Below are positions 22,561-45,361 of a stretch of DNA of 64,000 nt, piece by piece; position 1 is the stretch's first letter; every line of letters begins with the position of its first letter. Position numbers and translations under genes: made by a program. Source of the DNA: Pohlia nutans (taxonomy: Eukaryota; Streptophyta; Bryopsida; Bryales; Mniaceae); the NCBI GenBank assembly GCA_022496805.1, contig CM040085.1:48947811-49011810 (forward strand), given 5' to 3'. The notes below the pieces were generated by a model. That model searched no databases and was not told the origin of the DNA. It saw nothing but the letters and a program-made list of their open reading frames with translations.

Positions 22561-22567
22561 GACTTGA

Positions 22568-22639: not shown

Positions 22640-23295
22640 TTAGAGCATTGACGTAAAAATGTGTGGGAAGAACCCTCCTGGAGGGGCTCAGAAGTATTCA
22701 TCACGGGATCTCTCGACACCAAACTTGACCAAGATATAAGTACATTGTGAGCGAGATACAAAAGAACAGAAGACATTTGGGCTCCAAAGTATTCATCACG
22801 GGATCCCCCGACAGCAAACTTGACCGAGATAATTATACGTACATTGCGAGCGAGATACAAAAAACAGAAGAGATGTGGGCTCTAAAGTATTCATCACGGG
22901 ATCCGCGACAGCAAACTTGACCGAGATATACGTACATTGGGTTTAGGGAAATACAAAAGATTAGAAGAGATGTGGGCTCAGAAGTATTCATTGGGGGATC
23001 CCGCGATATCAAACTTGAACGAGATATCACATGGCGAGCGACATACAAAAGAGTAGAAGGCATGTGGGCTCAGAAGTATTTGTCACGGGATGCCCCCAAT
23101 ATCAAACATGATCGACATATTAGATTGGGAAGCAGATTCGAAACACATACAGAAACAAATATCATTGACATGAGGAAGGCAGATATTACACGGAAGACTG
23201 AGAATCGTTCAGGTATGGATGACTTCGATGTCATTAACAGAAGATCAGCAAGACAAGAAACTCAGACGTATTCATCGAGGGATCTCCCGATGTCG
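22640..23295. repeat. Tandem repeat, about 95-105 bp unit, with degenerate palindrome in each unit
   Basis: Five to six units share GTGGGCTC(A/C)GAAGTATTCATC, then a GGGATC-centred decayed palindrome, then CAAACTTGACCGAGATATA. The centres lie near 22700, 22803, 22903, 22996, 23089 and 23283. The last unit carries a near-full palindrome at 23273-23292. Openness of short frames here reflects the repeat. Confidence 0.75.
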
Positions 23296-23534
23296 TACCT
23301 AAGCGGCATAGAAGATCATGGATCAAATAAGTTAGCTCTCTCTAAGTTTGCTAACGCAGATTCCATGGCTTTCTTAGGAATGGTTCTACTCCTCAGATCC
23401 ATGATTTTCGACCAATTTGCATACACCACTGCATCAACACTGACCCACTGCGGAGCGCGCCTCTCTACTACCCACTTTGCAGACCAACAATTACGGTATT
23501 TCAATACAAGGTCTCTCTCCGCGCTATTGGGTTT

Positions 23535-26500
23535 TTAAAACTGAATTAGAAATTTCCCAAGGTTTACATCTCCTTGCTCTCTGCATACAGTACTCGCTGC
23601 TCTTCCTTGCCATACAGGACAAATGAGTGGATCTTCAGGTCTCAAAAGAACCCAGCTGCTAGGCCGAATGTCACGCCAAGGATTGAAAGGAATCTGTGGA
23701 GCTTCGTTTGCTGGGCCACAATACGGCTCTGGTTCCTCATCCTCAGGAGTCACATCCTCGAGTAAGAATGGTAAACATCTTGGGCGCGGTACTTTGTCTT
23801 CAAGGACCCTCCAATCATGGCGTGGCCAGAAACCCTCCAACAATTCAGGAGGTGTCACTGGCAGAGGCTTATCAAGCTCAGACAACAAACGAGTCCAGTA
23901 GTCAACGTAAGGCCCAAATGCTGCTGCAAATCCCTCGCATTTAGCCATTCCATTTCTCCAGTACTCAATGTACTTTTGGAGTCCCAACTTCATAAATTTC
24001 TTGATTTCAGTAGCTTTGGTTGCGATCTCTCTCGCCTTCACTTAATTCCCAATAGATTTAGAAACCTCACTTCCCCACATAGGCTTGAATGGAACCGGCT
24101 TTGGTGAGCCCTGAGGAAGTTTTGGGCCACCATCCATGTTTGCAACCCACAATCGAATAGGGGGTCTGTTGAGGGGTAGCCATTGTGCATCAACGGCTGA
24201 TTTCTTATACCTCATAACCGGCCAACCATTATCGTCCACATAGAACTTGAAGAGGTGCATCTCTCCAAGTCCAATAAGGCAAGCTGCACCACTGCTTTGA
24301 TAGCCATAAATGAAAGACTTGAAGTCTGCAACCTCTTGAATAAACTCCGGCATGAATGACAACTCTTGGGACTGCATGAAGGCCTTCATTAGGTCCGCAA
24401 AAAAAAAGGTATTCTTGCTTTTCAATGCCTTTGACAAATGGCTAAAATAAGCATCAATATTTTCATGCGTATGACCAACTAATAGAAATCCAGCCTGAAT
24501 TTCCTTGAAAACACCCCGTGCACTTAGCAAGGAGAGAAACGCCATGAGATTCTTGTTCTTGTTATCTTTGGCGGAGTTATCCAATTGAAGGTATAACTTC
24601 CTCGGTAAAGGTTTAGACCCTTGGAGATCAATACCTTCAGTACGCGGTAAAATATCAAGGCACCTAGACTTCCCCCTCAACAATGCCTCGAACAGAGAGT
24701 TCTGAGGCGGGTACTCAAATAGTTCCCCAGACTCCCGAATTGAGGGGCCTTCCAGTCGACGGAACAGCCTTGCCAACGATGATATTGTGGCATTAGAATC
24801 TCCTGGCCAACACTGAGGACAATAATGTGCATAGGCGCCATCCCCGTGCCCATGTGAAACCATACCAGTTACGTTCATAGAATGTTGGCCCAAACCTTGA
24901 GTAGCCTTTGTTGTAACCCGCATCCGCGGAAGGGCGGTTTTTGCAGTATCCATCTTGTCATGAATAATGCACAGAATCTCACTGGGATTGCGCTTTGATT
25001 CTTCGCGCCATGCACAATACAGACGACGACAAGATTGTTGGTGAGCAAGGTGCTCCTCCTGTTGCTTCACGAATTCAACATATTCCGGACTTCCGTTAGG
25101 TGACTTCAGAATGAATTCTTGAAGCTGGTCACAAGTCGAGCATTTCAGAAAAGAACTTCCAACCGGTTTGATTGCGATATTGCTGAAGAGGTCCTTTCTA
25201 ATCCTACTAATTGTAGACTGGCTCACTGCAGGCAGACCTAATGAAACGTTTGTCTGCAATGCTCCGGAACGTCCTATCAGTTGTGAGGCGAAGAAAGCGA
25301 CGAACGCAAACGAACAATCTCCAAGTATTACACGACAAATTATGACAAACCACCGAAGAGGGAAAAAAGAGTTATATATTGCATGACTTAGGTAGAGTGC
25401 AACGATACTGTAAGACAGAGAAGTGACTGTCAATACGAAAGTAACATCTATCGGGAGATCTCCCGATGCAACGACACTGTAAGACAGAGAGGTCACTGCC
25501 AATACGAGAGTAACATGTATCGGGAGATCTCCCGATGCAACTGATACGCGAAACAATGACTCGTACCTCATTGGCGTCGGCCATCACTTGCTTCCAGTTG
25601 TTGCCTGCAGGAAGATATTTCAAAGTGTCCACTCTTCCATGTCCGATTCCTCGCATTTGGTGGGGCATCTGATCTGCATTCTTGTCTACAATAGCAGCAA
25701 TAGTACCCATGACTTGAACTGTTCCAATCCGCGGTTGCTTGTAGCCCTTGTTTCCATGCACTGTTGAGAGAACCCCTTCGTTATATCTTTGGACATAGCT
25801 ATGAAAAGTCGACTTCGGAACTCCGTGAATAAGATACCACGCAGTCGCGCAAACTTCCAAACCATGCAGCGTCAAGTACTTCCTCCTACGGTCACCATCG
25901 ACTGAATGCATCTGTCCACCCGCAGCAATCCCATATTCCCGCCTTTCCTGAAAGGATTTCGAATAGAATTTTTGACGCACTATGAGTGTGAGCTCCTGTG
26001 GAAATGTCTGACAGCAATGCTTCGAGCAGCACCTCTCGGAGCTAACCTTCCTCACATCAGCATCCGCTGTCTTCGTATTGTACTGCGGAAGTTTCTCATA
26101 CGCTTTCGGTCTCCGCACTATAAACCGGTAAGGTGTCTTCCGTCTGCCTCCAAGGTGCTCTTGCGGATCTACATCCGTGGGGATTCGGGAAAAGTGGTCG
26201 ACTGTTGACCGAAGAGAAGGGCCGTTTAGGAATTTGCATTCAGATATCAACCAACGCTCATTACTCATTATGGCATCAGTGTCCCCGACAAAGACATCGA
26301 GGATCGTCACTCCAATGTATCCCTCGCCCAATCTTCCGTCTCGAAAATACTCCTCTGGTTCAGAGCAGAACACTCTACCCGAGGCTAAAACCACACCCAC
26401 AAGGTCCAGCCGCTGAACTTCCAGTCCAATCCAGGATTCTGGACGAACGTATTCAACATCGTCCATGGGAGGATCCTGCAACAATGCAATCACATCACCA

Positions 26501-26807
26501 GCTCTCCAGAGGATTGTTCGATTCAAAGCATCCCTCAAAACGCTGCAGCCTCTCTGGCGAGGTTCGAGGAAGAGGTTCTCTGCGTCCGACACGATGCTTG
26601 ATGGTCGCACAAGAATAAATTCCGCAGAGCCAGGTGGAATGCTAACTCCAAGCCACTGCCCAAAAGGAAGAACCTCGACAAAAGATCCGATTCCAACATC
26701 TCCGAAACGGGGGACGACAAGCTTCACAGATTGCCCGGGTCGAAGCTCATCTGAGCGAACAGTGATTGTTGAGAGAAGTCGTAACTGGATGGTCCCATAA
26801 ACGGCAC
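23535..26807 (-). CDS. DUF7869-type transposon protein, at least 2 exons, one in-frame stop
   Basis: Minus-strand exons are 26807-25564 and 25253-23535, joined across a GT-AG intron in phase 0. An acceptor-like CAG before 26807 implies earlier exons. The first exon encodes a segment with LEVCATAWYLIHGVPKSTFH. The second carries the DUF7869 core: HDKMDTAKTALPRM, then LQLDNSAKDNKNKN, then GFLLVGHTHENIDAYFSHL. DUF7869 proteins are widespread, multi-copy and probably transposon-borne; the spaced Asp/Asp/His-Asp residues resemble an RNase H-like active site, which is inference. TAA at 24044-24042 interrupts the frame, but the same frame continues for 168 codons with similar composition, so the C-terminus is either truncated or the stop is a recent C-to-T change. 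The intron holds two perfect 20-bp palindromes. Confidence 0.65.
25400..25540. repeat. Direct duplication of about 70 bp with two perfect palindromes, in an intron
   Basis: Two copies of a unit containing ACTGTAAGACAGAG, a spacer and TATCGGGAGATCTCCCGATG lie in tandem. The palindromes are at 25449-25468 and 25518-25537 and differ from the consensus only at the first base. The duplication is inside the intron of the DUF7869-type gene. Confidence 0.9.
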
Positions 26808-26860
26808 CTGGGGACCATCATTGTCACTGCCAGAGTCCATTCTAAAAAGATCCAAATCAG

Positions 26861-27263
26861 TATCGGGAGATCTCCCGATGTCCAGCCCGTTCAGGGACCA
26901 CTCTCGTACCTAATCCCTGAAAGTGGTCGAAATTCAATAGGATCGAGGGATCTCTCGATGTTGGAAATCAAGCGAGTAGGCGCACAATTGAACACCTCCA
27001 GCTCTACAGTCCGCGACTCAGAGTGAGCACTCCAGCCACATATACATCGGGAGATCTCCCGATACCTCAAGCGGCGTCACAACCCCTGCAGGGACCACGG
27101 TTTATGACGCAGTCTATAGATACTGCTCCGAATTCTAGAACATCGTGGGATCCCTCGATGTGAGATATCCACTGCTTAGGCTCAGTGCTGAACTCATCCA
27201 ACTGTACAATCTCAGAGTCGGGAGAGCACTCCTGCCGCATAAACATCGGGGGATCTCCCGATA
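26861..27263. repeat. Cluster of five dispersed palindromes upstream of the DUF7869-type gene
   Basis: Copies are at 26861-26880, 26941-26960, 27045-27064, 27141-27160 and 27244-27263, about 80-105 bp apart. Sequence between them is partly repeated (for example CTACAGT/CTGTACAAT and CAGAGT words). They lie at the 5' side of the minus-strand gene, in its leader introns or promoter. Confidence 0.85.
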
Positions 27264-27269
27264 CTCCAG

Positions 27270-28340: not shown

Positions 28341-28354
28341 CTTCAAGGTTCAGG

Positions 28355-28415
28355 GTTCAAGTTCAGGGTTTAGGGTTTAGGGTTTAGGGTTTAGGGTTTA
28401 GGATTTAGGGTTCAA
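28355..28415 (+). repeat. Interstitial telomere-like repeat (TTTAGGG)n
   Basis: Five to six copies of TTTAGGG, some diverged to TTCAGGG and TTCAAGG, stand just before a satellite. TTTAGGG is the plant-type telomere unit. The block is far too short to be a chromosome end. Confidence 0.85.
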
Positions 28416-28429
28416 GGTTTACGGCTTAT

Positions 28430-29365
28430 ATGAGCTCCGGATATATTTATATGGCAATATCTAATATAAAACACATGCGTTATATCATTTGGATGATGGT
28501 AGTACATCATGTAAACCATATTCTATAGTTGTTTCATTGGGGAGATATTTAAATGGCAGTATCTAATATAGAACACATGCGTTATATCATTTGGATGATG
28601 GTAGTACATCATGTAAAGCATATTCTATAGTTGTTTCAGATGGGGATATATTTAAATGGCAGTATCTAATATAAAACACATCCGTTATATCATTTGGATG
28701 ATGGTAGTACAACATGAAAAGCATATTCTATAGTTGTTTTAGCTAAAGATATATTTAAATGGCAGTATCTAATATAGAACACATGCGTTATATCATTTGG
28801 ATGATGGTAGTACATCATGTAAAGCATATTCTATAGTTGTTTCAGATGGGGATATATTTAAATGGCAGTATCTAATATAAAACACATCCGTTATATCATT
28901 TGGATGATGGTAGTACAACATGAAAAGCATATTCTATAGTTGTTTTAGCTAAAGATATATTTAAATGGCAGTATCTAATATAGAACACATGCGTTATATC
29001 ATTTGGATGATGGTAGTACATCATGTAAAGCATATTCTATAGTTGTTTCATTGGGGATATATTTAAATGGCAGTATCTAACATAAAACACATGCATTATA
29101 TCATTTGGATGATGGTAGTACATCGTGAAAGGCATATTCCATAGTTGTTTCAGTTAGAGATATATTTATATGGCAGTATCTAATATAAAACACATGCATT
29201 ATATCATTTGGATGATGGTAGTACATCATGAAAAGCATATTCGATAGTTGTTTCAGCTCGAGATATATTTATATGTCAGTATCTAATATAAAACACATGC
29301 GTAATATCATTTGGATGATGGTATTACATCGTAAAAGGCATATTCTATAGTTGTTTCAGCTAGAG
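28430..29365. repeat. Satellite: nine units of about 103 bp
   Basis: The unit contains GGCAGTATCTAATATAAAAC, TATATCATTTGGATGATGGT and CATATTCTATAGTTGTTT. Nine copies follow head to tail; the first and last two are the most diverged, and the internal units alternate in short variants, so the array grew partly by two- or three-unit blocks. Confidence 0.9.
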
Positions 29366-30480: not shown

Positions 30481-30489
30481 ATGTGTACG

Positions 30490-31272
30490 TCGTACTCCAT
30501 GAAGTACGTGCCAATACTCATTTTTTTTATAATGGTACTAAGAGTACCGGATCATCTCAAATTCGGCTCATCATTATCGTGCTTGATTTCCTCAATTGCT
30601 TCTCACCACCCTGTTTTTTCCAACGTCCTTTTGCGAATCTCCCCAGTCTCCCGCAGTCTCTACCCGTCAGTCCACTTGTGTAAACTTTTCTCCCTCATCT
30701 TCCATCCTGCATGCGCCCCGATTTTGTCGTCTTCTTGCCCTCGATTTTGTCGTTTTCTTGCGCAATTGGTGGGAAGTACCGACGCGGAGTTCTTTCAGAC
30801 ATTTTGGTGCGCGGGAGGTGCTGTACGGCGGCACAGACTCTTCTATTCTCTTGTAAGTGCAATGCAGCTGGAGATTTTGCCTTCACGAGCGTTAAATTCT
30901 TGCATTGAACCCTAAATTCTAGCGGTTTAGGGTTGCAGTTTTGTTTTCTTTCTAGGATTGTTGCATTCTGCTTGAACTCCTTCTGCGCTGTCTGGGCGCA
31001 TAATCAAATTTCTTCTTGGACAACAAGCTTGTCTACACGTACTTGTTTTGATTACCCTGCTTTGTTGCAATATTCTTGCTTTGTAAGTCTAATGCGTGAT
31101 GCAGTTAGTAAGTCTAATGCTCGCAATCGCATTGTTAGATTCCCTGTTTGTATGTCCTGTGATCAGTGCATTGTTGGAGTCTGATTCAGTTCCTTCTGTA
31201 CACTTCCCTCCGCCTCAATGTTTGCAATTTCCTGTGCAGTTTTCGGACGCTGTGCAGAGTTCTTGACAACTA
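30490..31272 (+). promoter_or_regulatory. 5' flank and leader of the ParB-like gene
   Basis: CT-rich stretches and cryptic donor/acceptor pairs precede the first coding exon. An acceptor TTCCTGTGCAG at about 31240 lies 33 bases before the ATG, suggesting a leader intron. No promoter element can be fixed. Confidence 0.3.
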
Positions 31273-31592
31273 TGGCAGGCACTTCATCGAGAGCGCCCAC
31301 GACCGCAAGAATCTGGGAAGACCCGTAAGTCTCACTTACCCAGGAATTCTATGCTTATTGAAATATTTCATGCAATGATTTGGAATTGCAGTAGTTTTGT
31401 GGAATGCACATAATCCCTGTCGTAGTGAATGGTGAGGAAGTTTGAGTGCTCAGATTAAGGACGTTACAGTGTAACAAATTAAGGGTATTCACATCTAGGA
31501 TAACCAAAAACCTAATCCTGAACCATAAATATAAACCCTAAACCCTAATCTTGAAACTTGAAACATAAACCGTAAACCAGAAAACCTAAACC

Positions 31593-31620
31593 TTAAACCC
31601 TAAACCCTAAACCCTAAACC
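31593..31620 (-). repeat. Short telomere-like (CCCTAAA)n block
   Basis: Three to four CCCTAAA units with diverged neighbours upstream (from about 31500) stand immediately before the palindrome array, in intron 1 of the ParB-like gene. They are in the opposite orientation to the block at 28.4 kb. Confidence 0.75.
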
Positions 31621-31639
31621 GTACGGACAGTGCTAATTG

Positions 31640-32325
31640 CATCGGGGGATCCCTCGATGCGTTGGTACCCCCTTCCCTTCCTGTGGAAAGTGCCAGGTCC
31701 ATCGGGGGATCTCTCGATGACTTCGAAGCCCCATCCATTCTTATGCACATTTCCAGGTCCATCGGGGGATCCCTCAATGCGTTGGTACCCCTTCCCTTGC
31801 TGTGGAAAGTGCCAGGTCCATCGAGGGATCTCTCGATGACTTCGAAGCCCCATCCATTCCTGTGCACATTTCCAGGTCCATCGGGGGATCCCTCGATGCG
31901 TCGGTACCCCCTTCCCTTCCTCTAGAAAGTGCCAGGTCTATCGAGAGATCTCTCGATGACGGATACAGACCCTTCCCTCCCTCTGCAAGTATCTAGGTTC
32001 ATCGAGGGATCTCTCGATGCTTTGATACCTCCTTCCCTTCTTGTTAAAAGTGCCAGGTCCATCGGGGGATCTCTCGATAACATCAAAGCCCCTTCCCTAC
32101 CTCTGGAACTTTCCGGCTCCGTCGGGGGATCCCTCGATGCGTTGGTACCCCCTTCCCATCCTGTGGATAGTGCCAGTTCCATCGGGGGATCTCTCGATGA
32201 CTTCATAGCCCCTTCCCTCCCTCTGCAAATTTCGTGGTCCTTGTAGATAGTTGTTGTAGAGTAAGCTCTATGCACAGCCCCTCGTGCGTTCGACTATATC
32301 AAAGTCATCGGGAGATCTCCCGATG
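31640..32325. repeat. Ordered array of ten palindromes at about 60-bp period, plus one perfect copy
   Basis: Ten copies begin at 31640, 31700, 31760, 31819, 31879, 31939, 32000, 32060, 32120 and 32180; an eleventh, perfect copy is at 32306-32325. Between them two spacer types alternate, one with GGTACCCCCTTCCC and one with GAAGCCCCATCC, so the true unit is a dimer of about 119 bp. In line with this, GGATCC- and AGATCT-type centres tend to alternate. Most array copies are imperfect palindromes (ATCGGGGGATCYCTCGAT), whereas the isolated copy is perfect. The array is inside intron 1. Confidence 0.9.
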
Positions 32326-33778
32326 ATCCCAGTTGTTAAATTGTTTATGGATTTGGAGGAAGAATTTGACCAACATTGGTTTCTGGTCGTTCTGCAGAGA
32401 AGAGCAAATCGAGGAACCACCAACTGACCACCGACCCGTGAAGCTGTACCCATTCGTTGGTAGTTGGATCCATGGTTTTGTATTCAATGGTGAATCGAAG
32501 CCGAGTGCAGTTTTCCGCTGCGACCAGAAGGTCACCACATGGGCCATGTCATGGAAGGATATGGCAGGAAGCACGGCCGTCATTGTCCCCCACCTCTCTA
32601 TGGACAAGCGGATCCACTCCCCGATTGGCCTAAATGTCGTCGAACTTCAAGGCCTTGACAACGAGACAGCTATCATGGTGGTGGAGGAGAAGATCCCAAA
32701 GTCCGAGCGAATTATGACGTATAGATTGATCCTGGACCTGTGCAAGCTTAGCCTAGAACAGTGTGAATCCCTCACTGCGAGAGGATACATGTTCTTCCCG
32801 GAGGACAAGACGCTCTGGACTCCTCAACATCTTCAGTCGTAGTGGGACCAAATCGAGGAGGCGCGCGCTGATTCTGCACCTGCTGCTCTAGGTCCAGCGC
32901 AGGCTCGGACTGACCCCGCTCCTCCCAAGAAGAGAGGCACAAAACGAAAATCCGCCTTGGGCACTGACGGGGAAATTGTGGTGCCTGTCGCGGGGAAGCC
33001 CAAAAAAGGCAAGGCTGATGAGAAACTTACCCTTCAGCAGTGTGTGACAATGTCAGCTTCGGATATTGAGAAGCTCGACAAGTCCAAACAGACGGAGATG
33101 AAAAACTTGTATAGCCAGGCATTCGAACCCCTGTACAAGTGGGGCCACGAGAAGCTGAAGGATGACAACGATAAGGAAATCATTGTGCACTACTCAAAGC
33201 TGCACAGGGCCCCTCCAGGTACCTGCGTCTACCGCGGACTTATTGAGGACAGGTTAAAAGCCTTGACGAACCAGGCGCGCATTGCTCCGAGGTACAGTGG
33301 AACAGATAGAGAAATTACAGTACTTCCACTGAAGAGGGGACCATATGGAGATAAGAAACTTGTAGAGTTCTTCACAAGTCCTCCGGAGAGGCATCAAATA
33401 AAGAGCTCTACAAACTTCTACATTATTGGGGGTCAGCATACGGTTCAGTGCTACAGAAATCTCGTCGAGAGTGGCGAAATTGATGACGCTGACAAAGCCA
33501 AGGCGTCCACGTTCTCAATCATTCCAGTGTGGGCGCCCAAGACTGACCACATCAAGCTCATGCTTCTCTCGCATGTACTAAACCAGGATATGGCTAGCCC
33601 GCAAAAGGAGCACACATTCATGATGCAAGTGCTGAATGCCCGAATCAAGTGGAAAGAGATGAATTGTCCCAAGCCATCTTCACAAGGACGCCAGCACCCT
33701 CAGGAATTCCTGGTAAGACAATATTCCCTCCCCATGGACTGCGCTCTGGCCTCTGAGAACCTTCCTCAAATTTACTAT

Positions 33779-33798: not shown

Positions 33799-35251
33799 AC
33801 AACAAGCTCATTGGAGAGCGCTACTAACACCTCTTCTGTGTCTCGTATGCAGGACTTTATTCCTGCTCTCGCATCGATCTTCACGAACGTGAAGGACTCA
33901 GAGCTAAAGGACTGCAAGATTCCCCTACTCTTTACTGAGGACGACAGCGCAGTCGACCGATGGGTGGAGATTGAAAAAGAGAGCATCAAGGGGAAGCTTC
34001 CAGATGCGTAAGGGAATGTGCAGAAGAACTATGACCTGAAGCGCAAGCCCTTTCTCCAGCATGACTTGAAAGCGCTATACGGCTTGCGCTCAGAGGATAT
34101 CCACTACCTTGCTGACCTTGTGGAGAGAAAGGAAATCTCTCTGAAGAGCTCCAAGGCCACCAAAGGTGATAAAGTGGCAAGAATACCGTCTCTTCTTGCA
34201 GCAGGAACCAGGGAGCGACTGGTCAGGCTGATGAAGAACGAGTTGATGAACCACTTTCTGAAGTGGGAGCTTCCAAGCCGTAAGAGCACATACGTTATGT
34301 ATTCTTCGCAGGACTGGGAGGACTTTGCCAAAGAGAAGTCCATCACTCGTGCGGAGTTGGAGAGCTGGTTGGATAAGGTGTATGCGTCGACTGTGGGAAA
34401 GAAGTGGTTGGACGACCGGAACAGGAACCTGAACAAGACGTCTGATCCGAAGGACTTACCTGACATGGTCAAGGTGATGTGGGACGCACACATATACGCA
34501 ACAAAGCAAGCGGAGGTTGCATCGGACATCCAGAGCAAGTTTGCAAGGAAGTACAAGTGCGTAGTATTGGACAGGCTTAGGCCCGACATTGCTGGCCTGA
34601 TAGGAAGTGAAGATGTGTTTCAATGGAGAGGAGGGGGGAAAACACACCTGTTCTTCTACTTCTTGTTTGATGCAAAGGACGACATGCCAGTGAAAGTAGA
34701 GGTGCTGGACGAGAGCAAGATGAATCGTATATTTGAACCTCTGGAGGGCAGTGAACGAAACGGGTCACTCTTTGCTCGCTCAGGGGCAGTGCTCTTCACA
34801 GACGCGGCGGGATTCCATGCTATAGTATCGCACATGGAATCCCGCCTGCGGACATCAAAGCAGAAGGTATGGAACTGGCATGTGGTCCACTACGTTCCCT
34901 CCCGCGAGGACGGATTTCCCGACCCCGATGTCGGTACTTCCTACGTCGTGTACATAATTTTCTGCTTCGGACATGTGGCGAAGCAGTCGACGCAGCTCAA
35001 CTTCAGGGATTATTTTTGTGGGAAGACTGCCATGGACGTAGTGTACCTGGCCAAGGACATTACGGAAAGTATCCAGCAATGGAAACGAAGTGGTCGACCA
35101 ACGATAAAGTTGGCCGCGCTTTCTACTCTCTTCAAGCCGCACCTCAAAGAGAATATGGTACTTGTAAATGTCAATGGCGGGGCTCACTTCACCCACCTTG
35201 GACTTGTAAGTTTGCTGTCTGCACCCCTTGCACTCTATAAGAATGAGAGGC

Positions 35252-35331
35252 CATCGTGGGATCCCTCGATGGACCGGCCTCGTTTAGAATGATGGTAAGG
35301 GGGTTTCAAATCATCGAGGGGTCCCCCGATG
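35252..35331. repeat. Two dispersed palindromes in intron 3 of the ParB-like gene
   Basis: Copies at 35252-35271 (BamHI-type GGATCC centre) and 35312-35331 (centre changed to GGTCCC) are 60 bp apart, the same period as in the intron-1 array. Confidence 0.9.
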
Positions 35332-36042
35332 GACCTGGCAGTTTACACCAGGCTCTCTTACACTTTTGAACCATTCGCCATGATATTGAACTTTCCATTT
35401 GGTTAGAGTGTGCTCTTCGTATTACATCACTTCTGACTTCCCGTCTGCATGTCTATAGGAAAACCTGACCATGATTCTCGAACTTGTCTTCTCTGAAGAT
35501 GAGAAGGAACTGGCTCAGAGAACGTTGAAGCAGATCTGGGACATACTGTACAAGGATTCAGTTGCCCCAGACGTCTTGCTACTCGAAGGTGGGGAGGATG
35601 GTGGTGACAGAGATAGTGAGGGCACCCATGAAGAGGGTGGTGATGAAGGTGGTCAGGATGACACACAACAAGGCCGGGAACGCACTCCGGATGATAAGTC
35701 CGAAACCGACTTTGACGAGACGCTGGATCCGCCATCTGTGCCAGAAGACTCTATCAACGATACATCTCCAGCAAGGCAAGATTTGGAGGCTTTTGAGAGG
35801 GAGACGCAAATGGAGGTTGTTGAGGATACCACTTCGGTAGGTTCCAAAGAGTAGCTAGGCCCTCGCACCTTGGTAGAGCTTTAGCACTGCTCATCGGGTT
35901 AATTTCCAACACATTGTAATATTCTTGTACCATTTTACTCCAATCCAAATTCTCCTGGACTGCAGTTTTTCATACCGATAATAGTGTACTGCGCTCATAT
36001 TGCAAGGACTGCTGCACTCCCAAGTCGTCTATGGTGGTGCTG

Positions 36043-36491
36043 CGTCGGGGGATCCCACGATTGACCAATCTCACGTTGGGGACTCCTCCACGCCACGAAG
36101 CGATCAGGCCGCCATGTCAGGCAACACCAAGGACCTAGCCTGGTCCTTGGTGGACATGAAAATATCATCGGGGGATCTCCCGATGGAGGACGCAACGCCA
36201 TCTCATCAGCGAGAGGCTCAGGATCCTGAAGGTGGCGCGGGACATCGGGGACAGGATGCTGAGGACCTGCACGAATATCCCATGAATGTCGAACTGCATT
36301 CTACGGTTCCGCAAAGGGATGCTGCGGAACAAGCACGAGTTCCTGCGGAAGCGAACGGGTATGCGGAGGAACCGAAGCGGGATGCTGCGGACCCGGAAGG
36401 GTTTCCTCGTCTTGAAGAGGGTGAGACTGAGAGAGGAGTAGGTGGTCCTCAGCATGCACGGTGCATCCCATCATCGGGAGATATCCCGATG
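36043..36491. repeat. Three dispersed palindromes in an open coding frame and its leader
   Basis: Copies at 36043-36062, 36166-36185 and 36472-36491. The last two lie inside the coding frame of the acidic/FCP1-like gene and keep it open, each giving the residues SGD(L/I)PM. Confidence 0.88.
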
Positions 36492-38289
36492 TTAAAAGCC
36501 AATCCAGCTGATCCACTGGATCCCCTCGTTACTGACGAGGGCGCTGATGACATTTCCCTCATCCTTCCTATTGTGATCCCATCCAGCCCCTCGCCTCAGA
36601 GTACATTTCCCGAAGAGACCCGTCAGTCGCATCTGAAGGCACCCGTCATGAACGAAGATGTTGACGACACTTTGCTGGATTTGGACGCGTTCAGCCCGGA
36701 GAAGAAGACATGTGACGTGGAAGTCAAGGACTGTGACGATGTCAAGGACTGTGACGCGGAAGACAAGGACTGTGACGATGTCAAGGACTGCGACGCGGAT
36801 GAAGAGGACCTAGACCTGGATTTATATGAAGGGCTCCCGGACAAGGCAATGACGGAGGTATCCACTGAGCTTGATCCAGTCGTGGAGGACTTGAAATCTA
36901 GTCACCTCCGGGATGTAGAGAAGCTAGTGCTGCGGAAGGGGATGAAGCAGTTGCAACGGTCCCTTCAGCCGGCCCTTCCCTTGGGAACTGCATCGGGCCC
37001 CCCGATCACACGAAGCAAGGGTAAGAGAGGGCCTAGCACCGGAACGAGAGTCAAGGTTAAGAAAAAAGTCACCGGCACTGAGAGGATGGTTAAGGGAAAA
37101 GGCACCGGCACTGAGAGGAAGGTTAAGGGAAAAGGCACTGTAGCGGAAATTCCTGTTAGTCTCAGGGATCAGGTAATTGAACACATGTTCCAGCAAAGGA
37201 ATTACTGCCCACCCTCTCGCAGCGCTAAGTATCTTGAAGCAGTTAGAGAGGCTCACGAGTTCGTTTACAAGGGCTATGTTGGTAGCATCCCATTTACTAA
37301 TAATTTTGAAATAAAACCTTTACCTGATGCCGACGTCTAGGGCCGGGAACTTTGCTGTAATTGTCCACCCCGATCGCAATTCATCGGTTGTCCAAGATTC
37401 GAATTTGGACGCCCGTGCGAAAGGTATCTAGACAGACTATATTTGTGTAGGAGTCATATGTATATCCAAAGACTTGTTTTACCCTCAGAAAATGTACATG
37501 TCCTCAGATTGGAAGAGTTTAGTACGTATAGTGTCCGCCGTAGGCGCTTGAGGAATTCATTGCACATTTGTATCGAGGGATCTCCTGATGCTGAATTCTG
37601 ATCATACCTATATTTTTGTTGGTTTTGCAGGGCCCCGTCTCCCTTCCTCCATTCCAGAAAAGGTGATCGGAAAGGTATCCCTTCGAAGGTATTCGGTTGT
37701 ACTAGACTTAAATGGGGTTCTCATTTACCGTGGGGGGTATGTAGCGGGCAGAGAGCGCTCTGTAAAGCTAAGACCTGGCTGCTCTGCTTTCCTGGACTGG
37801 CTTTCTTCTCAAGCACTGGTATCCTTTTGGACCAGCATCGCAGACAAGAATATTTCTCGAGTGGTTGATGTTGTTCTTCAGGGTACCTCCTTGAAGCGAG
37901 AGGGTGTGCAGGTTCTTAGCCAAAGCAATTGCACTCGTTCGTCATACGTGGAGTCGTCAAATCCACACAAGCCGTTCTTTCTGAAGAATCTTAATGTCTT
38001 CGCTAAGTTGCTGGGATTGGAGTCCGTTGAGGATGTCCTACTAGTGGATGATAGTCCACAGAAGAACCTTCTCAACGATGTTCATAGCGCTGTCCACCCC
38101 CCGACCTGGTCCGGTGATGATGGAGATAGGTTTATTACCATGCAGCTGCAACCGTGGCTGGAGGGTCTATTCAGATCAAGCGAAGTTGTCACAGAGTATG
38201 TGAAACGGGCCCCGCTTCCGGGTGGTCAGTTACCACTGGACCGAATGTCGGACTTGGCAGTTCAGATTTTGAGGGGCGTTGCAATATAG
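36114..38289 (+). CDS. Acidic N-terminal domain plus FCP1-like HAD domain, proposed 2 exons
   Basis: One frame is open from 36000 to TAG 37340; the first ATG is 36114. A donor at 37281/37282 (GTTG|GTAGC) and acceptor TTTTGCAG at 37630 join in phase 1, giving exons 36114-37281 and 37631-38289 (608 residues). Without splicing, the first frame would be a 408-residue protein ending at 37340. The N-terminal part is acidic, with KDCDDVKDCDAED repeats (36710-36810) and basic KGKGTGTER repeats (37070-37140). The second exon is an FCP1-like HAD domain: VVLDLNGVL (motif I, second Asp replaced by Asn), SFWTS, and LLVDDSP. The order of a low-complexity N-terminus followed by FCP1 matches the gene at 7.2-9.1 kb. 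Two 20-bp palindromes (36166, 36472) are translated in frame as SSGDLPM and SSGDIPM. Confidence 0.55.
37571..37590. repeat. Dispersed palindrome in the proposed intron before an FCP1-like exon
   Basis: TATCGAGGGATCTCCTGATG lies 40 bp before the acceptor at 37630. Confidence 0.88.
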
Positions 38290-38558
38290 TTCAAATGACT
38301 TTGGATTTTCGACATCTCATTTTATTCAGAGTTCTTTATTGTTAAATGTACTTTTCTCTCTCATGACCATGTAATGAAGCTGTAGCACGCTCATTTTTGA
38401 TAGCAAATTCAATTACGGAGTTCCTCTGGTTTTGCAATTGTCTTTGTGAATTCAGTGGAGTTTTGGAACTTTGAATTTGTCGTTGATTCGCTTTGCTGTG
38501 GTAATACATTTTTAGTTCAATTGTGACGACCTCTGTGTGCCATGGCGTTGGGTGGCAC

Positions 38559-38628
38559 CATCGAGATATCCCCCGATGAACTATGTTAGCAAATTCGTCG
38601 TTTACAAACAACGGAAGATCCCCCGATG
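38559..38628. repeat. Two dispersed palindromes between FCP1-like exons
   Basis: Copies at 38559-38578 and about 38609-38628 precede the acceptor at 38675. The second has a diverged left arm (ACGGAAGATCCCCCGATG). Confidence 0.85.
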
Positions 38629-38675
38629 TTTTGTTTCTGTAATAATGTCCTGATATTTGTATTTCAACTGTGCAG

Positions 38676-39275
38676 AAGGCGATAGTTCTCTCAGTGAATG
38701 GCGTTCTGTGCTTCGAGGATTATAAAGGATTCAGCCCGCCGTTGCTGGACTTAGCGAATGTCATTTGCCGTCCTGGAATTCGACCTTTCTTTCGAATGCT
38801 TCTGGAGGTTTTCCACGTCGGAATATGGTCATGTATGCCCCCATCCCGCTTAGACCTTGTCTTAGCACATCTACTTCCACTGGAGCTTAGATCGCAGTTG
38901 CTTTTTGTGTATGGTCAGGACAAGTGTGTTTGACAGAAGCCTTATCCATTCTTCGAGAAGTTGCTGCGGCGACTTACAATGGGTACTAAAACTCGTAGGT
39001 TTTGCAAACCGGGTAATGTTCTCATGGTTGATGATTGTGAATGGAAGAATGTAATGAATGGAAATCATTCCTGCTATTTCCCGATTCCTTGGAAGAGTGA
39101 AATGCACCTACCTAATCCGCGAAACGTCATACCAGACGTCTGCACAGCCTTACTTCCATTCATTATGGATTTGGTTCATTATGACTCCGTTACTGAGTTC
39201 CTCCAGAACACACCTATGGATGGGAAATTATGTAGGAGATCACTTAGGCAATGGTACACCAGTAGAGTAGAGTAA
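38676..39275 (+). pseudogene. Third FCP1-like HAD domain, motif I lost, in-frame TGA
   Basis: An acceptor (CTGTGCAG) at 38675 opens a frame that runs to TAA near 39275, with one TGA at 38931-38933. The domain order is that of FCP1-like proteins: AIVLSVNGVL in place of VVLDLDGTL, RPGIRPFFRMLLEVFHVGIWS, then, after the stop, KPGNVLMVDDCEWKN. Both motif I aspartates are gone (Ser-Val-Asn-Gly) while the VDD motif is kept. It is therefore a pseudoenzyme or a decaying copy. It follows the previous FCP1-like exon by 390 bp on the same strand and may be a second domain of the same locus. Confidence 0.55.
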
Positions 39276-39493: not shown

Positions 39494-39526
39494 TATAAAC
39501 ACGCAATTCGCTATTTACGCACTTGG
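39494..39526 (+). repeat. Left terminal inverted repeat
   Basis: 33 bases, beginning TATAAACACGCAATTCGC, perfect match to the reverse complement of 45238-45270. Confidence 0.9.
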
Positions 39527-40012
39527 CCTTATAATCATGCACTTGGCCCCCGAGCGCACTAAAAATTCAAATCCCAAAAAATTGCAAAAAAAATTAGGCA
39601 AATTTTTTTTCCCAGCAATTCCCTTCTAATAAGGATAAATTGCAAATTCATGGAGATTTTCGATGGGGGATTTCCTTTAAAGAATTTGTATTTGCATTTT
39701 CTATATGTCAAATTTTTGTCCTATACGCAACAAAACTATCATGTGATATTCATTCTGCACATACTATGCGATAGGTACGAAAGTGGGAATTCTGAATCCC
39801 TTATTTGTGCACGCATCTTACATAATCATACAAGCACATTGTATGCATTTAGATATGGGCTACAAACATACACATAAGATTTAATTATTCTTTGTATTAT
39901 ATAAAAATCGTGTACTCGTTCACGTTTTATAATAATAGTACACACTTTTCCCTTCAATACCTCGACATCTAATACAGAAAACCATATACTGTATAACATA
40001 TACAATTCTATT

Positions 40013-40642
40013 CTAGTAAGCATCTAGCTCGTTCTGCATCCTCTCGTCATCCATGCCTTCCACCTGTAATGCAATATATTCAAGTATGTGTGGCTTTGCT
40101 TCATTGAGAATAGTTACTTGGTTCTCAGTTTGAACTCCTTGTATAGAAATGAACTTCACCTTTAAATGTCCACTTCTCGTTCTTGCTGGTACATCTCTCC
40201 ATGAAAATATAGCAGCTTCTTTGTCCACCCAACCATGTCTCTCACCAGATGGCTCCCAAGATGCTTCCATGCAGTTCCTGTATCGTTGTGGCTCAGAACC
40301 TGCTTCATCCGTCACACCTCGCCTCATAATAGGCCGATACCATATCACCTTCACTTTCATTGCCCATGTGCCTTGTCCAAATTCCACCACCTTCCGCACA
40401 TAGAATGGTACTCTAGCCGTTACTACTTTCCGCTCTACTGTTAAAGCCACGAACTGTCCAATCTCCAAGTCCCTCGCTGGATTGAAAACTGGAAACAGAT
40501 CATCTGTTGCCTCCAGGGTAGCTGTAGATGATGCTTGGCCCACGACTTCCGTCCCTGTTCTTCTAGGCGTTCTCGTTATCGCTGCAGTAGATGGTCTGCC
40601 CTTTCGAGGTCCGAAGTACCCTCGAGGCTCTGGGTTGGGCAC
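40013..40642 (-). CDS. BAH-like ORF inside the inverted-repeat element
   Basis: A 209-residue frame (first in-frame codon near 40642; a Met-Pro-Asn start if ATG) ends at TAG near 40013. The first 50 residues are basic and Ser/Thr-rich. From about residue 55 it reads IGQFVALTVERKVVTARVPFYVRKV, then WAMKVKVIWYRPI and a YRNCMEASWEP segment. The V-x-WYRP pattern after a beta-rich segment resembles BAH domains, which bind chromatin, but this is only a resemblance. It stands alone on the minus strand in a mobile element, so it may be a captured host fragment or the 3' exon of a larger element gene. Confidence 0.45.
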   Translation of the reverse strand: MPNPEPRGYFGPRKGRPSTAAITRTPRRTGTEVVGQASSTATLEATDDLFPVFNPARDLEIGQFVALTVERKVVTARVPFYVRKVVEFGQGTWAMKVKVIWYRPIMRRGVTDEAGSEPQRYRNCMEASWEPSGERHGWVDKEAAIFSWRDVPARTRSGHLKVKFISIQGVQTENQVTILNEAKPHILEYIALQVEGMDDERMQNELDAY

Positions 40643-40794
40643 TCGAATCCATCGTTATCCGTATCTCTGTTCACCACATTTGCAATCCGTACTTAGTATA
40701 ATAAACATTTATAATAGCTTAACTACGATCTATACATAAAGTACAATTGTTTTGTTATGTTTTGTTTGTTTGAAACGGTGAGAACTCTTAATCC

Positions 40795-41352
40795 GAGTGT
40801 CCCCGGGCTTGACTCCAGGCCCCATGCGGTCTTAGCGATGTCCCTCGGGGCCCAAATGCTAATTCAGTCCACTTGAGGGCCCCAAACAGGGCCCCCAAGT
40901 GTTCTAGGAGCCCCCGTGGGGCCCCCGGGGTTGACCCATAGCAACATGCGCTCCTAGCGGTGCCCCTCGGGGCCCAAATGGCAATTCAACCCACTAGGGG
41001 GCCCTAAACGGGGTCCCCAAGTGTTCTAGGAGCCCCCGTGGTTGACCCCTAGCCCCATGCGGTCTTAGCGATGTCCCTCAGGGCCCAAATGCAAATTCAG
41101 CCCACTTAGGGGCCCCCAACCGGGGCCCCCAAGTGTTCTAGGAGCTCTCGTGGGGCCCCCGGAGTTGACCCCTAGCCCCATGCAGTCCTAGCGGTGCCCC
41201 TCGGGGCCCAAATGCAAAATCAGCCCACTTGGGGGCCCCAAACGGGGCCCCCAAGTATTCTAGGAGACCCCGTGGGGCCCCCGGGGTTGACACCTAGCGC
41301 CATGCGATCCTAGCGGTGTCCTTCGGGGCCCAAATGCAAAATCAGCCCACAA
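40795..41352. repeat. GC-rich satellite, five units of about 120 bp, left orientation
   Basis: The unit contains CCCCTCGGGGCCCAAATGCA, CAGCCCACTTGGGGGCCCC, GTGTTCTAGGAGCCCCCGTG and TTGACCCCTAGCCCCATGCG. A decayed single unit appears again near 41650-41730. Units are full of small palindromes (GGGGCCCC, CCCCGGGG). Confidence 0.9.
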
Positions 41353-42250
41353 CTTCTACTTAAAAATTTGTTAAATTTGTTAAAATGAATTCATCCATTC
41401 CAACAACTTCTACTTAAAAATTTGTTAATATGTTGCTTACAATCAATTTTATAAGGAATTTAGAATTCTCACTTTTAAAGTTTAGAATAAAATATTGGAG
41501 ATAGCATTGGTTAACCTCACCATACAGATGGAATATTCAATTCAAAATCTAAAACTATCATTCATACATCAATTGTAAAATATTATTCCATATAGTACTT
41601 TATGATGACTTTCCTCAAATTGCCAAATCTGGAGACACCTTTGTACGTTTAGGAGTTTAAAATGAGCCCACTAGGGGGCCCCAAATAGAAACCCAACTGT
41701 TCCTAGGGCTCGTATGGGGCCCCCGTCGAAGTACACTTGCAATTTGCTAGAGTACAGGCCGCTGTTGATGACAACATGAATTAAATGCTAATGCAATGGT
41801 TTAGGTATAAAGTCTTACCGGGAAGTCCTGGATTCGTTGTAGAAAGCTCCTACACCCCGCTGATCAGTACTCCACTAGTGCTGAATAAATCCTCCCATAT
41901 ATATACCTTTCACAAATAAAAAGGAAATGGAATAGACTGTTAATTCAATAACAACGATGATTTTTTCTGTAGATTTTATGAGATAATAGCTTCACGCAAG
42001 TTTGAACCGATGAGAAATAGGATGATTTTTGAAATTATTATGCCTCATTTCATGTTCTAGTTATTCATCAAAACCTTCTAAGATCTTAGTTGAAAATGAA
42101 TCAAAACTGCACTCGAAGAAGTCACCTTATACAATTATACAACCAAAAGATCTCCACAAATTACTACACTTAGAGATATACATTTCAACCTATCACAACA
42201 TATTTCATCAATATCCTATTTGTAATCGAACTAAATAGATGCTTGAAATT
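41353..42250. other. Gap: AT-rich spacer within the inverted-repeat element
   Basis: No gene seen. A phrase CAACTTCTACTTAAAAATTT is duplicated at about 41348 and 41400. Confidence 0.4.
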
Positions 42251-43108
42251 TATTTTAAAGATTATCATAAAAAAAAAACAAAAGCACAAACAGAAAGAAA
42301 GAAACAAATAATGCAAAGAAAAAAACAAAAACAATTAAACCAAAAACGGGAAAAACCAAAAAAAAAAAAAACACAATTTAAAAAAAAAAAATATAAGCAA
42401 AAAAACAAAAAAACAAAAAAAACACCAAAAACAGAAAAAAGTCAAAAAACAGAAGACCATAAAAAACAAAAAACCACAAAAACAAAAAAACAAAAAAAAA
42501 AAAACAAAAAAACAAAAAAAACAAGAATAAAAGAACAAAAAGAAAGAAAGAAACAAAGAATGAAAAGAAAAACACAAAAAAACAAAAACACAAAAATTTA
42601 GAAAAACTAAAACCAAAAAAACCAAAAAACATAAAAACATAAAAACATAAAAACATCAAAAACCAAAAAAAAACCAAAAAAAAAAAAACCACAAAAACAA
42701 AAAAACAAAAAAAACAAAAAAAAAAAAAACCAAAAACACACAAAAATACCAAAGACTAAAACAAAAAACAAAAAAACCAAAAAAAAAAGAAAAAAAAAAG
42801 AAAAGGAAGAAAACCAAAACCCAAAAAACAAAAAACTGTAATAAACAAAACAAACCAAAAACAAAAAAAAACCAAAAAAAGGAAAAACGAAAAAAAAAAG
42901 AAAAAAAAAACAGAACAGTAAAAAAAAAACATAACAGTAAAAAGAAAAAAACAGAACAGTAAAAAAAAAACATAACAGTAAAAAGAAAAAAACAGAACAG
43001 TAAAAAAAACAGAACAGTAAAAAAGAAACAGAACAGTAGAAAAGAAACAGAATAGTAAAAAACAAACTGAACAGTAAAAAACAGAAAAAAAAAAAAAAAA
43101 AAAAAAAA
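42250..43108 (+). repeat. A-rich low-complexity core, (A)nC-type
   Basis: Some 860 bp consist almost only of A with single C or G (AAAAACAAAAAAC). Near 42910-43080 it turns into repeats of ACAGAACAGTAAAAA. Long frames on the minus strand translate into Phe/Leu/Cys/Val-rich chains; these are composition artefacts, not membrane proteins. Confidence 0.9.
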
Positions 43109-43220
43109 CGGCGCCGGCCGGGCCCGCCAGCTGGGCCGACCAGCTGGGGCCGACCAGCTGGCCCGCTCCAAGGGCGGCCAGCCCAATGGGCTGGCCTCCC
43201 TTGCAAACACACACAAATAG

Positions 43221-43248
43221 AAGAGGGTGCGCGGCCGCGCACCCTCTT
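43221..43248. repeat. Perfect 28-bp palindrome with NotI-like centre
   Basis: The arm AAGAGGGTGCGCGG is followed directly by its reverse complement, centre GCGGCCGC. Just upstream (43108-43190) lie repeats of GGCCGACCAGCTGG. It can form a 14-bp loopless hairpin or cruciform. Confidence 0.92.
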
Positions 43249-43688
43249 GGCCCATTTTTTGGCTCAGGCAAGTGTCTCTCTCCAGTCCTCCGTCCCTCGT
43301 CCACATTCTCCTTTCTCTATAACATCAGATTGCGTTCATTTTTTCTTAAAAAACTTCAAAAAAACCCACTATCTCACTTAAGCTCTCTAACACATACCAT
43401 GGTCAGCTCTCCATCGTTGTAATGAGAAGAATGAAGGGTTCTTCTTATATATATGAAGAACAACTCACGAAAGCACTTCATTTAGAAAATACACTCTTTC
43501 TCAACTAATTTTCTGTTCATGTTCGTTTCGATTCGTGACAGGAATTTGGAAGGGAGCATTAATTCGTTAGTGGGGGAGTTCCATCTGCAGAGTCTAAGAG
43601 CTTCAACCACGAATTCAAGACTTTGAGGTAAACGTTTCTCCCTAAACCATTCTTTTATCGATCAGTTCATGCGCTGAATAGGCATCTA

Positions 43689-44312
43689 GGCCCGAGGGGC
43701 ACCGCTAGGATCGCATAGTGCTAAGGGTCAACCCCGGGGGCCCCACGGGAGTTCCTAGAACACTCGGGGGGCCCCGTTTGGGCTGATTTTGCATTTGGGC
43801 CCCGAGGGGCACCGCTAGGTCCGCATCGGCCTAGGGGTCGACCCCGGGGGTCCCTTGGGGACTCCTAGAACACTTGGGGGCCCCGTTTGGGGCCCCCAAG
43901 TGGGCTGATTTTGCATTTGGGCCCCGAGGGGCACCGCTAGGACCGCAAGGGCATTGGGGTCGACCCCGGGGGTCCCACGGGTACTCCTAGAACACTTGGG
44001 GCCCCCAAGTGGGCTGATTTTGCATTTGGGCCCCGAGGGGCACCGCTAGGACCGCAAGGGCATTGGGGTCGACCCCGGGGGTCCCTTGGGGACTCCTAGA
44101 ACACTTGGGGGCCCCGTTTGGGGCCCCCAAGTGGGCTGATTTTGCATTTGGGCCCCGAGGGGCACCGCTAGGATCGCAAGGGCATTGGGGTCGACCCCGG
44201 GGGCCCCACGGGAACTCCTAGAACACTTGGGGGCCCCGTTTGGGGCCCCCAAGTGGACTGATTTTGCATTTGGGCCCCGAGGGGCACCGCTAGGACCGCA
44301 AGGGCATTGGGG
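43689..44312. repeat. GC-rich satellite, six units of about 110-123 bp, inverse of the left array
   Basis: The unit begins GGGCCCCGAGGGGCACCGCT and contains CTCCTAGAACACTTGGGGG. It is the reverse complement of the unit at 40.8-41.35 kb. The two arrays therefore form a long subterminal inverted repeat around the A-rich core. Confidence 0.9.
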
Positions 44313-44756
44313 TCTATCCCGCGTGACATGGAGGTGTTGCCACGATCAGGGCTGGATGCGGGTGGATCTGAGGTGTTGCCAACAGCAGGAGTAGTTGTGG
44401 ATATTGATTCCACCCCACGTCCGTTTCATTGGGCCCTACCAAACCGAGATATGACACTTGCAGCGGACGGATTCTACTATGACGTTGATGGAGTCAGATA
44501 CAGGCGTCACGGGATTGGAGGGCAGTATACGTTTGAGCAGGCGGCATCTATCATGGAGGAAGCGTCACCTGTGCACCGGGTGTCATCTCCGATGGTCAAT
44601 GCCATGGTGGCTCAAGCTTTGGAGTATACAGATCCCGAGACCCCTTTAGATGTTCGTGCGAGGTTGGAGGAGCAGCGTGTAGCTAGTGAGGAGGGTCGAG
44701 ACGACGGAACACAGTCATCTGAGAGGATTCCAGAGACCCAGTTCCCCTTCGAGTAG
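44307..44756 (+). CDS. Small acidic ORF at the right side of the inverted-repeat element
   Basis: 149 codons from ATG 44307, beginning in the last satellite unit, to TAG 44756. The middle encodes GFYYDVDGVRYRRHGIGG, the C-terminus is Glu/Arg-rich. It has no recognised domain. Codon-by-codon it looks more protein-like than its shadows, so it may be the last exon of an element gene; the start inside the satellite is doubtful. Confidence 0.35.
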   Translation: MGSIPRDMEVLPRSGLDAGGSEVLPTAGVVVDIDSTPRPFHWALPNRDMTLAADGFYYDVDGVRYRRHGIGGQYTFEQAASIMEEASPVHRVSSPMVNAMVAQALEYTDPETPLDVRARLEEQRVASEEGRDDGTQSSERIPETQFPFE

Positions 44757-44836
44757 TAGCTTTTTTAGACAGTGTGGATTAGTGCTATTGGTTGCACTTC
44801 AGATGGCCGACTTGTACTTCTTTATCATATGTATTT

Positions 44837-44876
<40 letters not shown>

Positions 44877-45237
44877 TTTATATGTGGATCCATACTTTAT
44901 GTAAATACGTGGATATGTGGAGTAATGATGTCGTTGTACGAAAATGTATTGCGGATTGTATGTGATTGTAATACGAGGGGAATGGGGAAAATGCGGTTGA
45001 AAGATAGTAAAATGTTGGATATTTATTGCACTTTTGAAGGGGTTTTATGAAAGACACTTTGAAAAATTAAAAAACTGTATGAAATTCACATATTTATTAT
45101 TGAAAATCCGTAATATATTTGATTAATTGCAATGCACTGCACTTTTCACCATAAACAAAAATCACACCCTTTTCAAAAAAAAAAATTTGATTTCTGAATT
45201 TTTTGGCACAATGGGGCCCCGAAATGACCGCACTTGA
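44757..45237. other. Gap: AT-rich, (TA)n at about 44840-44870
   Basis: No gene is seen between the small ORF and the right inverted repeat. A (TA)n microsatellite of about 30 bp is present. Confidence 0.4.
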
Positions 45238-45270
45238 CCAAGTGCGTAAATAGCGAATTGCGTGTTTATA
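45238..45270 (-). repeat. Right terminal inverted repeat
   Basis: 33 bases ending GCGAATTGCGTGTTTATA, perfect inverse of 39494-39526. Confidence 0.9.
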
Positions 45271-45341
45271 TTACTTAGTTTGTCCATACATTTTCACTCA
45301 TGCAATTATGAGATGACTGTTGTTCTTCCGGAACAGCACTA

Positions 45342-45361
45342 TATCGGGAGATCTCCTGATC
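45342..45361. repeat. Dispersed palindrome upstream of the RING-like gene
   Basis: TATCGGGAGATCTCCTGATC, rightmost copy in the window, 130-150 bp before the first ATG of the RING-like gene. Confidence 0.88.

Follow-up and report, generated by a model that had tools for sequence, protein, structure and literature searches.

A large DNA transposon of the moss Pohlia nutans carries dispersed, family-specific palindromes that may bind an element-encoded protein

Introduction

Short motifs repeated many times within one mobile element are known from plant DNA transposons. En/Spm belongs to the CACTA transposons, which have CACTA-like termini and a 3-bp target-site duplication (TSD), and its repeated binding sites are subterminal; TNPA is held to act there, in compaction, end pairing or the sensing of hemimethylated DNA. 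VANDAL elements, which are Mutator-like elements (MULEs), have a longer TSD of 9-11 bp. For one of them, VANDAL21 (Hiun) of Arabidopsis, the available text of two papers (PMC5735166, PMC10398659) describes VANC21 sites in non-coding regions, introns and upstream regions, with arrays that diverge between relatives and a 9-bp motif, YAGTATTAY, that is not palindromic. Here, we describe a 20-bp palindrome, canonically CATCGGGAGATCTCCCGATG, that recurs in a 64,000-nucleotide stretch of the moss Pohlia nutans (assembly GCA_022496805.1, contig CM040085.1, positions 48,947,811 to 49,011,810; hereafter the window), an Antarctic species whose genome consists to 23.68% of DNA transposons according to the available text of its description (PMC9247546). 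One light-harvesting protein encoded in this genome finds light-harvesting and chlorophyll a-b binding proteins as its matches in the PDB. A preliminary description of the window had listed 29 near-full copies confined to 22 kb and likened them to bacterial repetitive extragenic palindromic (REP) elements. We find that the palindromes are internal parts of one large DNA transposon, not free-standing units, and consider what they may do for it.

The palindromes belong to one large transposon

All 29 listed palindromes were found at their exact coordinates with 0-5 mismatches to CATCGGGAGATCTCCCGATG, the reference for the mismatch counts of listed sites; 21 of them have three or fewer, a level not reached once in 100 dinucleotide-preserving shuffles of the window. 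Their confinement was borne out, no match at up to 5 mismatches lying outside 22.9-45.4 kb of the window, and the '22 kb' that holds them is almost exactly one transposon, at 22567-45496 (Table 1). Decayed copies are indeed present in the tandem repeat at 22.6-23.1 kb, but there are three of them and not about five.

The ends of the element were recognised by comparison with other copies. Loci A, C and D, picked from the first sites of a genome listing of the palindrome, are collinear with the window over 22.57-39.50 kb and 45.27-45.50 kb, and the copies share a boundary formed by the inverted repeat ATGCCATATTTAACTATTTCTGGA at 22567 and 45496. Six complete copies of this window family (the window copy, A, C, D, F and G) measure 17,363-42,459 bp and hold 29-34 palindromes each. 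The first 24 bases of the terminal inverted repeat (TIR), ATGCCATATTTAACTATTTCTGGA, are identical in all six, the window copy deviating at the next base, and a 4-bp TSD is perfect in four (CTTG in the window copy, GGTT in C, TCAA in D, CTTT in F), carries a single mismatch in A and is lacking in G. Cut-and-paste DNA transposons are characterised by TIRs, a TSD and a DDE transposase; TIRs and a TSD are present here, and the DUF7869 protein described below is a candidate for the third. At locus B collinearity is inverted and limited to about 28.4-36.6 kb of the window, and the ATGCCATATTTAACTATTTCTGGA inverted repeat was not found in 40 kb of that locus. Genome-wide, the 26-bp TIR has 75 exact occurrences, among which are 20 convergent pairs, spaced by 50 kb or less and spread over 10 contigs; a single change in its left TIR keeps the window copy out of this set. 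At least five element-sized TIR pairs recur every 43-51 kb at C15:16.85-17.25 Mb, which suggests a tandem segmental duplication bearing the element.

The degenerate pattern CATCGRGRGATCYCYCGATG is matched exactly at 613 places in the genome (698 Mb; total 697.80 Mb) and its reversed control at none, which disposes of the possibility, raised in the preliminary description, that the motif occurs at chance frequency. Among the matches listed (50 of the 613), all 50 exact sites lie inside the window copy, A, B, C, D or the sister element E introduced below. The same description had envisaged that all copies might be parts of a larger known transposon; among the listed sites this largely holds, except that the transposon itself is described in none of the papers listed by our literature search, which took in neither supplements nor the majority of subscription journals. 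Prokaryote genomes totalling 257 Gb gave 5 matches to CATCGRGRGATCYCYCGATG versus 3.7 expected in random sequence (257e9 x 16 / 4^20); the palindrome was also matched on two IMG/VR contigs. As a stand-in for palindromes of other species, peptides that the palindrome would encode were sought in 151 homologous proteins, with one weak and uninformative match. A chance repeat is ruled out by the window shuffles, the genome control pattern, the prokaryote count and the shuffles of E and T described below.

Placement and conservation of the sites

The placement of the sites was judged against exon models whose splice sites are all our own, drawn from the sequence alone. The modelled exons make up 44% of the window element and contain none of its 32 sites (at most three mismatches to YATCGRGRGATCYCYCGATR, gene 3 not counted as an exon), versus 14.2 expected, and 20,000 random draws never produced an outcome of zero. 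No modelled intron lacks a palindrome. The densest group, an array with 60-bp spacing, lies within the first intron of gene 2, since the first exon of that gene joins 32398 in phase; the first-exon string is present in the window copy, F and G and has no exact match in A, C and D. One palindrome of the transposase intron (25518) has a counterpart at the aligned intron place in E, and in the window family and in T the left end is followed by a first palindrome after 100-133 bp. The preliminary description had also placed copies in an open coding frame. In this copy it applies only to the uncertain open reading frame (ORF) of gene 3, where two palindromes follow the first ATG and one precedes it within the open frame; it also applies to transposase exon 1 of E. 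The gene 3 frame is open over 384-451 aa in all six copies, and the E palindrome (L020:7958-7977) encodes SGDPPMD in frame, opposite an aligned QDPPMD in the window family.

The motif also varies less than its surroundings. With copy F as the sole reference, 1.9% of motif versus 4.75% of flank columns were variable, a comparison affected by ascertainment bias, so each of the six copies was instead taken as reference in turn and the five others were compared, leaving out the array. In these six overlapping tests the variable columns amounted to 5.5-6.9% in the motif versus 10.2-12.1% in the flanks, with p from 1.2e-5 to 0.031. Motif CpG positions vary less than flank CpG positions, significantly so only for reference D (p=0.0056; others 0.074-0.5). 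Units of the 60-bp array differ at 10% of motif versus 40% of spacer positions, and all 22 non-array sites of copy F align with all five other copies.

Sister families E and T

In two further complete elements, E and T (Table 1), the transposase, gene 2 and the NIF gene follow one another as in the window family, each in unchanged orientation. Their identity to it is 49-71% for the transposase, 26-35% for gene 2 (40% in one 58-residue piece), 37-44% for gene 4 and 20-24% for the second NIF half. E holds 41 palindrome-like sites, all within its ends and none in 5.8 kb and 0.4 kb of flank; T holds 38, again all within the ends, with none in 2.9 kb and 3.0 kb of flank. Fifteen shuffles of each element gave no site (T was then taken without its last 3 kb, with 37 sites). 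In all three families one cluster of palindromes lies 5' of the transposase and another directly ahead of the homologous coding part of gene 2.

The palindromes share the frame ATCG...GATC...CGAT across families and differ in the half-site words at positions 5-8 of both arms, which were compared in sites with at most one mismatch to YATCGNNNGATCNNNCGATR (22-32 per window-family copy, 20 in E, 30 in T). The words are GGGA, GAGA and GAGG in the window family, GGGC in E and GGAG in T, with GGGG in all. GGGC is not among the words printed for T or for the window family (two window-family words fall beyond the printed top eight); GGAG occurs twice in the six window-family copies and never in E, and W-type words occur three times each in E and T. 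The palindrome thus seems to have changed between families as a symmetric unit over dozens of sites. Pattern YATCGGGSGATCSCCCGATR, which partly coincides with W-type and T-type spellings, has 410 exact genome sites and its control none.

Nested in E is a 292-bp element resembling a miniature inverted-repeat transposable element (MITE) at L020:2966-3257, with T-type ends, a T-type core palindrome (CGGAGGATCCTCC) and no clear TSD. E also carries a 5.5-kb insertion that is 99.2% identical to window 57171-62634, a 5.46-kb repeat with direct end repeats of about 259 bp which we read as a young insertion of the long terminal repeat type.

Genes and other features of the element

The first gene encodes a DUF7869 protein. 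Its frame, in two exons, is intact in copy A and broken by in-frame stops in the window copy. Conservation in 47 aligned homologues reaches 91-100% at the acidic residues D115/D118, D241 and E280-D283 (P0001 numbering; the intervening 282 excepted), which suggests a DDE-type transposase. The 120 listed of 146 homologues extend to a liverwort, Riccia sorocarpa, and a lancelet, Branchiostoma belcheri. A PDB profile search with DUF7869 gave a best E of 0.77 and nothing below, and no paper found in the literature searched names the domain.

Gene 2 is an orphan of about 1,038 aa, modelled in four exons on the plus strand. Searches with parts of it gave no Pfam, PHROG or PDB match, the best Pfam scores being far below cut-off, and a 935-aa spliced query found no homologue among 8000 scored candidates; exon 3 alone has 31 homologues, none informatively named. 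A stretch conserved in the three families, IIGGQH(T/S)V, looks ParB/sulfiredoxin-like by eye, which is a likeness only. The searches lend no support to a ParB-like loader: when 716 of the approximately 1,038 residues were compared with Pfam and PHROGs, no ParB model, the ParB N-terminal domain included, matched with an E of 10 or less.

Pfam searches of nine neighbouring ORFs returned NIF, Retrotrans_gag and, below cut-off, Sipho_Gp157. A further NIF phosphatase-like ORF outside the element (8309-9133; PF03031, E=1.3e-14) is perhaps part of another large element. The nested insertion near the right end has inverted ends of its own (AAACACGCAATTCGC...); within it, the 122-bp tandem repeats at 40801-41350 run in the opposite direction to those at 43779-44321. 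A 103-bp satellite array free of palindromes (28439-29361) accounts for a large part of the differences in length among copies; it has about 9 copies in the window and extends over about 20 kb in copy C and about 11 kb in locus B. Telomere-like repeats face each other across this satellite spacer, TTTAGGG-type at 28347-28421 and CCCTAAA-type at 31532-31620; tandem TTTAGGG pairs occur in all six copies and tandem CCCTAAA pairs in three (window, F, G). They might be a relic of, or reflect passage through, a linear telomere-ended form, or be telo-box-like promoter motifs.

Table 1. Features of the window element, in window coordinates, and the two sister elements, in genome coordinates
Feature	Position	Strand	Remarks
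Left TSD	22563..22566		CTTG
Left TIR	22567..22592	+	
Three decayed palindromes	22699..23008		22699, 22794, 22989; in 98-bp tandem repeat
Palindrome	23273..23292		near 3' end of transposase gene
DUF7869 protein (likely transposase), exon 2	23319..25254	-	PF25273, E=1.2e-40
Two palindromes	25449..25537		25449, 25518; in transposase intron 25255-25565
Likely transposase, exon 1	25566..26840	-	
Five palindromes	26861..27263		80-104 bp apart, 5' of transposase
Gene 2, exon 1	31272..31324	+	MAGTSSRAPTTARIWEDP; in-phase join to 32398
Ten-palindrome array	31640..32199		60-bp spacing; gene 2 intron 1
Exact canonical palindrome	32306..32325		end of gene 2 intron 1
Gene 2, exon 2	32398..33712	+	
Palindrome	33779..33798		gene 2 intron 2
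Gene 2, exon 3	33853..35205	+	
Two palindromes	35252..35331		35252, 35312; gene 2 intron 3
Gene 2, exon 4	35459..35854	+	
Gene 3 ORF	35985..37340	+	stop to stop; coding status uncertain
Three palindromes	36043..36491		36043, 36166, 36472; in gene 3 open frame
Palindrome	37571..37590		immediately upstream of first NIF exon
Gene 4, NIF phosphatase-like domain	37631..38290	+	PF03031, E=8.2e-14
Two palindromes	38559..38628		38559, 38609; between NIF-like halves
Second, degenerate NIF-like half	38677..39275	+	by eye and from weak gene 4 matches in E/T
Nested insertion	39497..45270		absent at this place in A, C, D; without palindromes
Palindrome	45342..45361		near right end
Right TIR	45471..45496	-	
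Right TSD	45497..45500		CTTG
Element E	C2, 33.97-34.0 Mb		30,712 bp, complete; TIR ATGCGTTATTTAACTAAATATGGAC, one mismatch between ends; TSD CATA both sides
Element T	C1, 36.28-36.31 Mb		27,663 bp, complete; TIR ATGCATCATTTATCTATTTCTGGAA, up to two mismatches between its ends and query used; TSD TTAT both sides

Comparison with described systems

The moss element resembles VANDAL21 in being a multi-gene DNA transposon with a short non-coding motif, tandem arrays and family-specific variants, as far as the available text on VANDAL21 describes them, and the concentration of its motif in non-coding regions of elements is a VANDAL-like feature (all 50 sites listed of 613 lie in elements). It differs in its 20-bp palindrome, the transposase domain, the 4-bp TSD, the length of 17-42 kb and a gene 2 without recognised domain. 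VANC is encoded by its own element, recognises the motif and brings about a loss of DNA methylation; for the moss element such an activity would be a prediction. Membership of VANDAL/MULE was rejected, DUF7869 being the only domain above cut-off in the transposase and the TSD being 4 bp (perfect in E and T). Our best reading, by analogy, is that the moss system would work like VANC/VANDAL anti-silencing without being a member of that group.

Like En/Spm with TNPA, the element would be a plant DNA transposon in which a short binding site is repeated many times, but its sites run throughout the element and are not subterminal, and the termini of the three families (ATGCC/ATGCG/ATGCA) and the 4-bp TSD differ and rule against CACTA membership. 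Superfamilies with a 4-bp TSD include Sola, Chapaev, Academ and Ginger; the Pfam search of the transposase, in which only DUF7869 exceeded the cut-off, compared no dedicated models for these four. Bacterial REP and Rickettsia palindromic elements are likewise short dispersed palindromes, some of them in open frames, but they are scattered single units, whereas those of the moss are built into a transposon at set positions. ParB/parS offers a parallel in its palindromic loading sites, and on the protein side in the by-eye resemblance of IIGGQH(T/S)V.

What the palindromes may do

The explanation that we favour, with a probability of roughly 0.55, is that the palindromes are selectively kept binding sites of a dimeric protein encoded by the element, most likely by gene 2, and serve anti-silencing, the marking of the element for transposition, or both. 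An element-made homodimeric DNA-binding protein would occupy some 30-40 palindromes spread over promoters, introns and both element ends, and the resulting coat would keep the element open and expressed in a sequence-specific manner, as VANC does on VANDAL21; in addition or instead, it would mark the element for transposition. A site that stays symmetric while its spelling changes from family to family suggests a DNA-binding homodimer that diverged along with it. Gene 2 is the best candidate for the reader because it is more divergent than the transposase and has the densest array in its first intron, and self-targeted binding with an anti-silencing or activating effect is favoured because the sites are placed like VANC21 sites. 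Of the roles proposed in the preliminary description, that of a protein-binding operator has gained indirect support, from conservation beyond the flanks, placement off the modelled exons and family-specific half-site words in both arms; the binding itself, the identity of the reader and the anti-silencing effect are what we infer.

Several points weigh against this explanation. Gene 2 has no recognisable DNA-binding domain in the Pfam, PHROG and PDB searches of its parts, and its divergence would by itself be no proof of a reader role, the second NIF half being as divergent. In each element the two arms agree fully at positions 5-8 in just 6-14 sites, and one palindrome lies in a transposase exon of E. 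The six conservation tests overlap because the copies are related, and gene conversion between copies could lower variation, although this would not obviously affect the motif only.

The main rival, a role in transposition itself, is possible but appears considerably less probable. Here, the transposase or a helper would bind the sites to compact the 17-42 kb element, pair its ends or sense hemimethylated DNA. Palindromes do stand close to both ends, and the 292-bp non-autonomous element keeps T-type ends and one T-type core, as if TIRs and a single cis site were the minimum; this short element is a single example, however, the majority of sites are internal, in introns and ahead of genes, and the transposase diverges less between families than would be expected of a reader of the palindrome. 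Host transcription factor operators, recruited to drive the element's genes, are an unlikely explanation: the clusters ahead of the transposase and gene 2 would suit them, but exact W-type sites, among the matches listed (50 of 613), occur only in elements, and one shared host factor fits badly because the spelling is family-specific within one genome.

Still more improbable is a role at the RNA level, in which a transcript hairpin would be a small-RNA source, as the preliminary description had suggested, or an intron structure. A 36-nt piece around 32306 folds well (-15.9 kcal/mol, z = -3.96), and arm mismatches counted on the transcript strand for all three arm pairs, pooled over six related copies, show the expected excess in the plus-strand genes (G-U 72 versus A-C 36). 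In the minus-strand transposase region, however, G-U mismatches are fewer than A-C mismatches (33 versus 45), so that wobble pairs are not consistently kept, and the near-end sites fall outside the modelled genes. A stand-alone mobile micro-element (REP-, MITE- or introner-like) that jumped many times into the transposon is hardly credible: the palindromes are short, repeated and in several cases intronic, but their positions are kept across copies of a far larger transposon (22 of 22 non-array sites of copy F), one intron site is homologous in a sister family, and three families have matched site sets inside element ends only, which speaks against independent insertion and leaves the REP-like interpretation unsupported.

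Concluding remarks

Returning to binding by an element-encoded protein, the three families offer a natural co-divergence experiment for gene 2 proteins and palindromes. If gene 2 is the reader, the moss would have a system analogous to VANC on another type of transposon and with another protein, and such systems would appear to arise repeatedly. We tentatively suggest a second, independently evolved and sequence-specific self-protection system of plant transposons, this one in mosses, in which dimers of the gene 2 protein, perhaps with a ParB-like loading fold, would coat the 30-40 palindromes of their own element and operators would have changed together with the protein; the coexisting families would then be ready-made orthogonal reader/operator pairs. 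For DUF7869, a domain of unknown function, a likely activity emerges, that of a transposase in large elements of plants.

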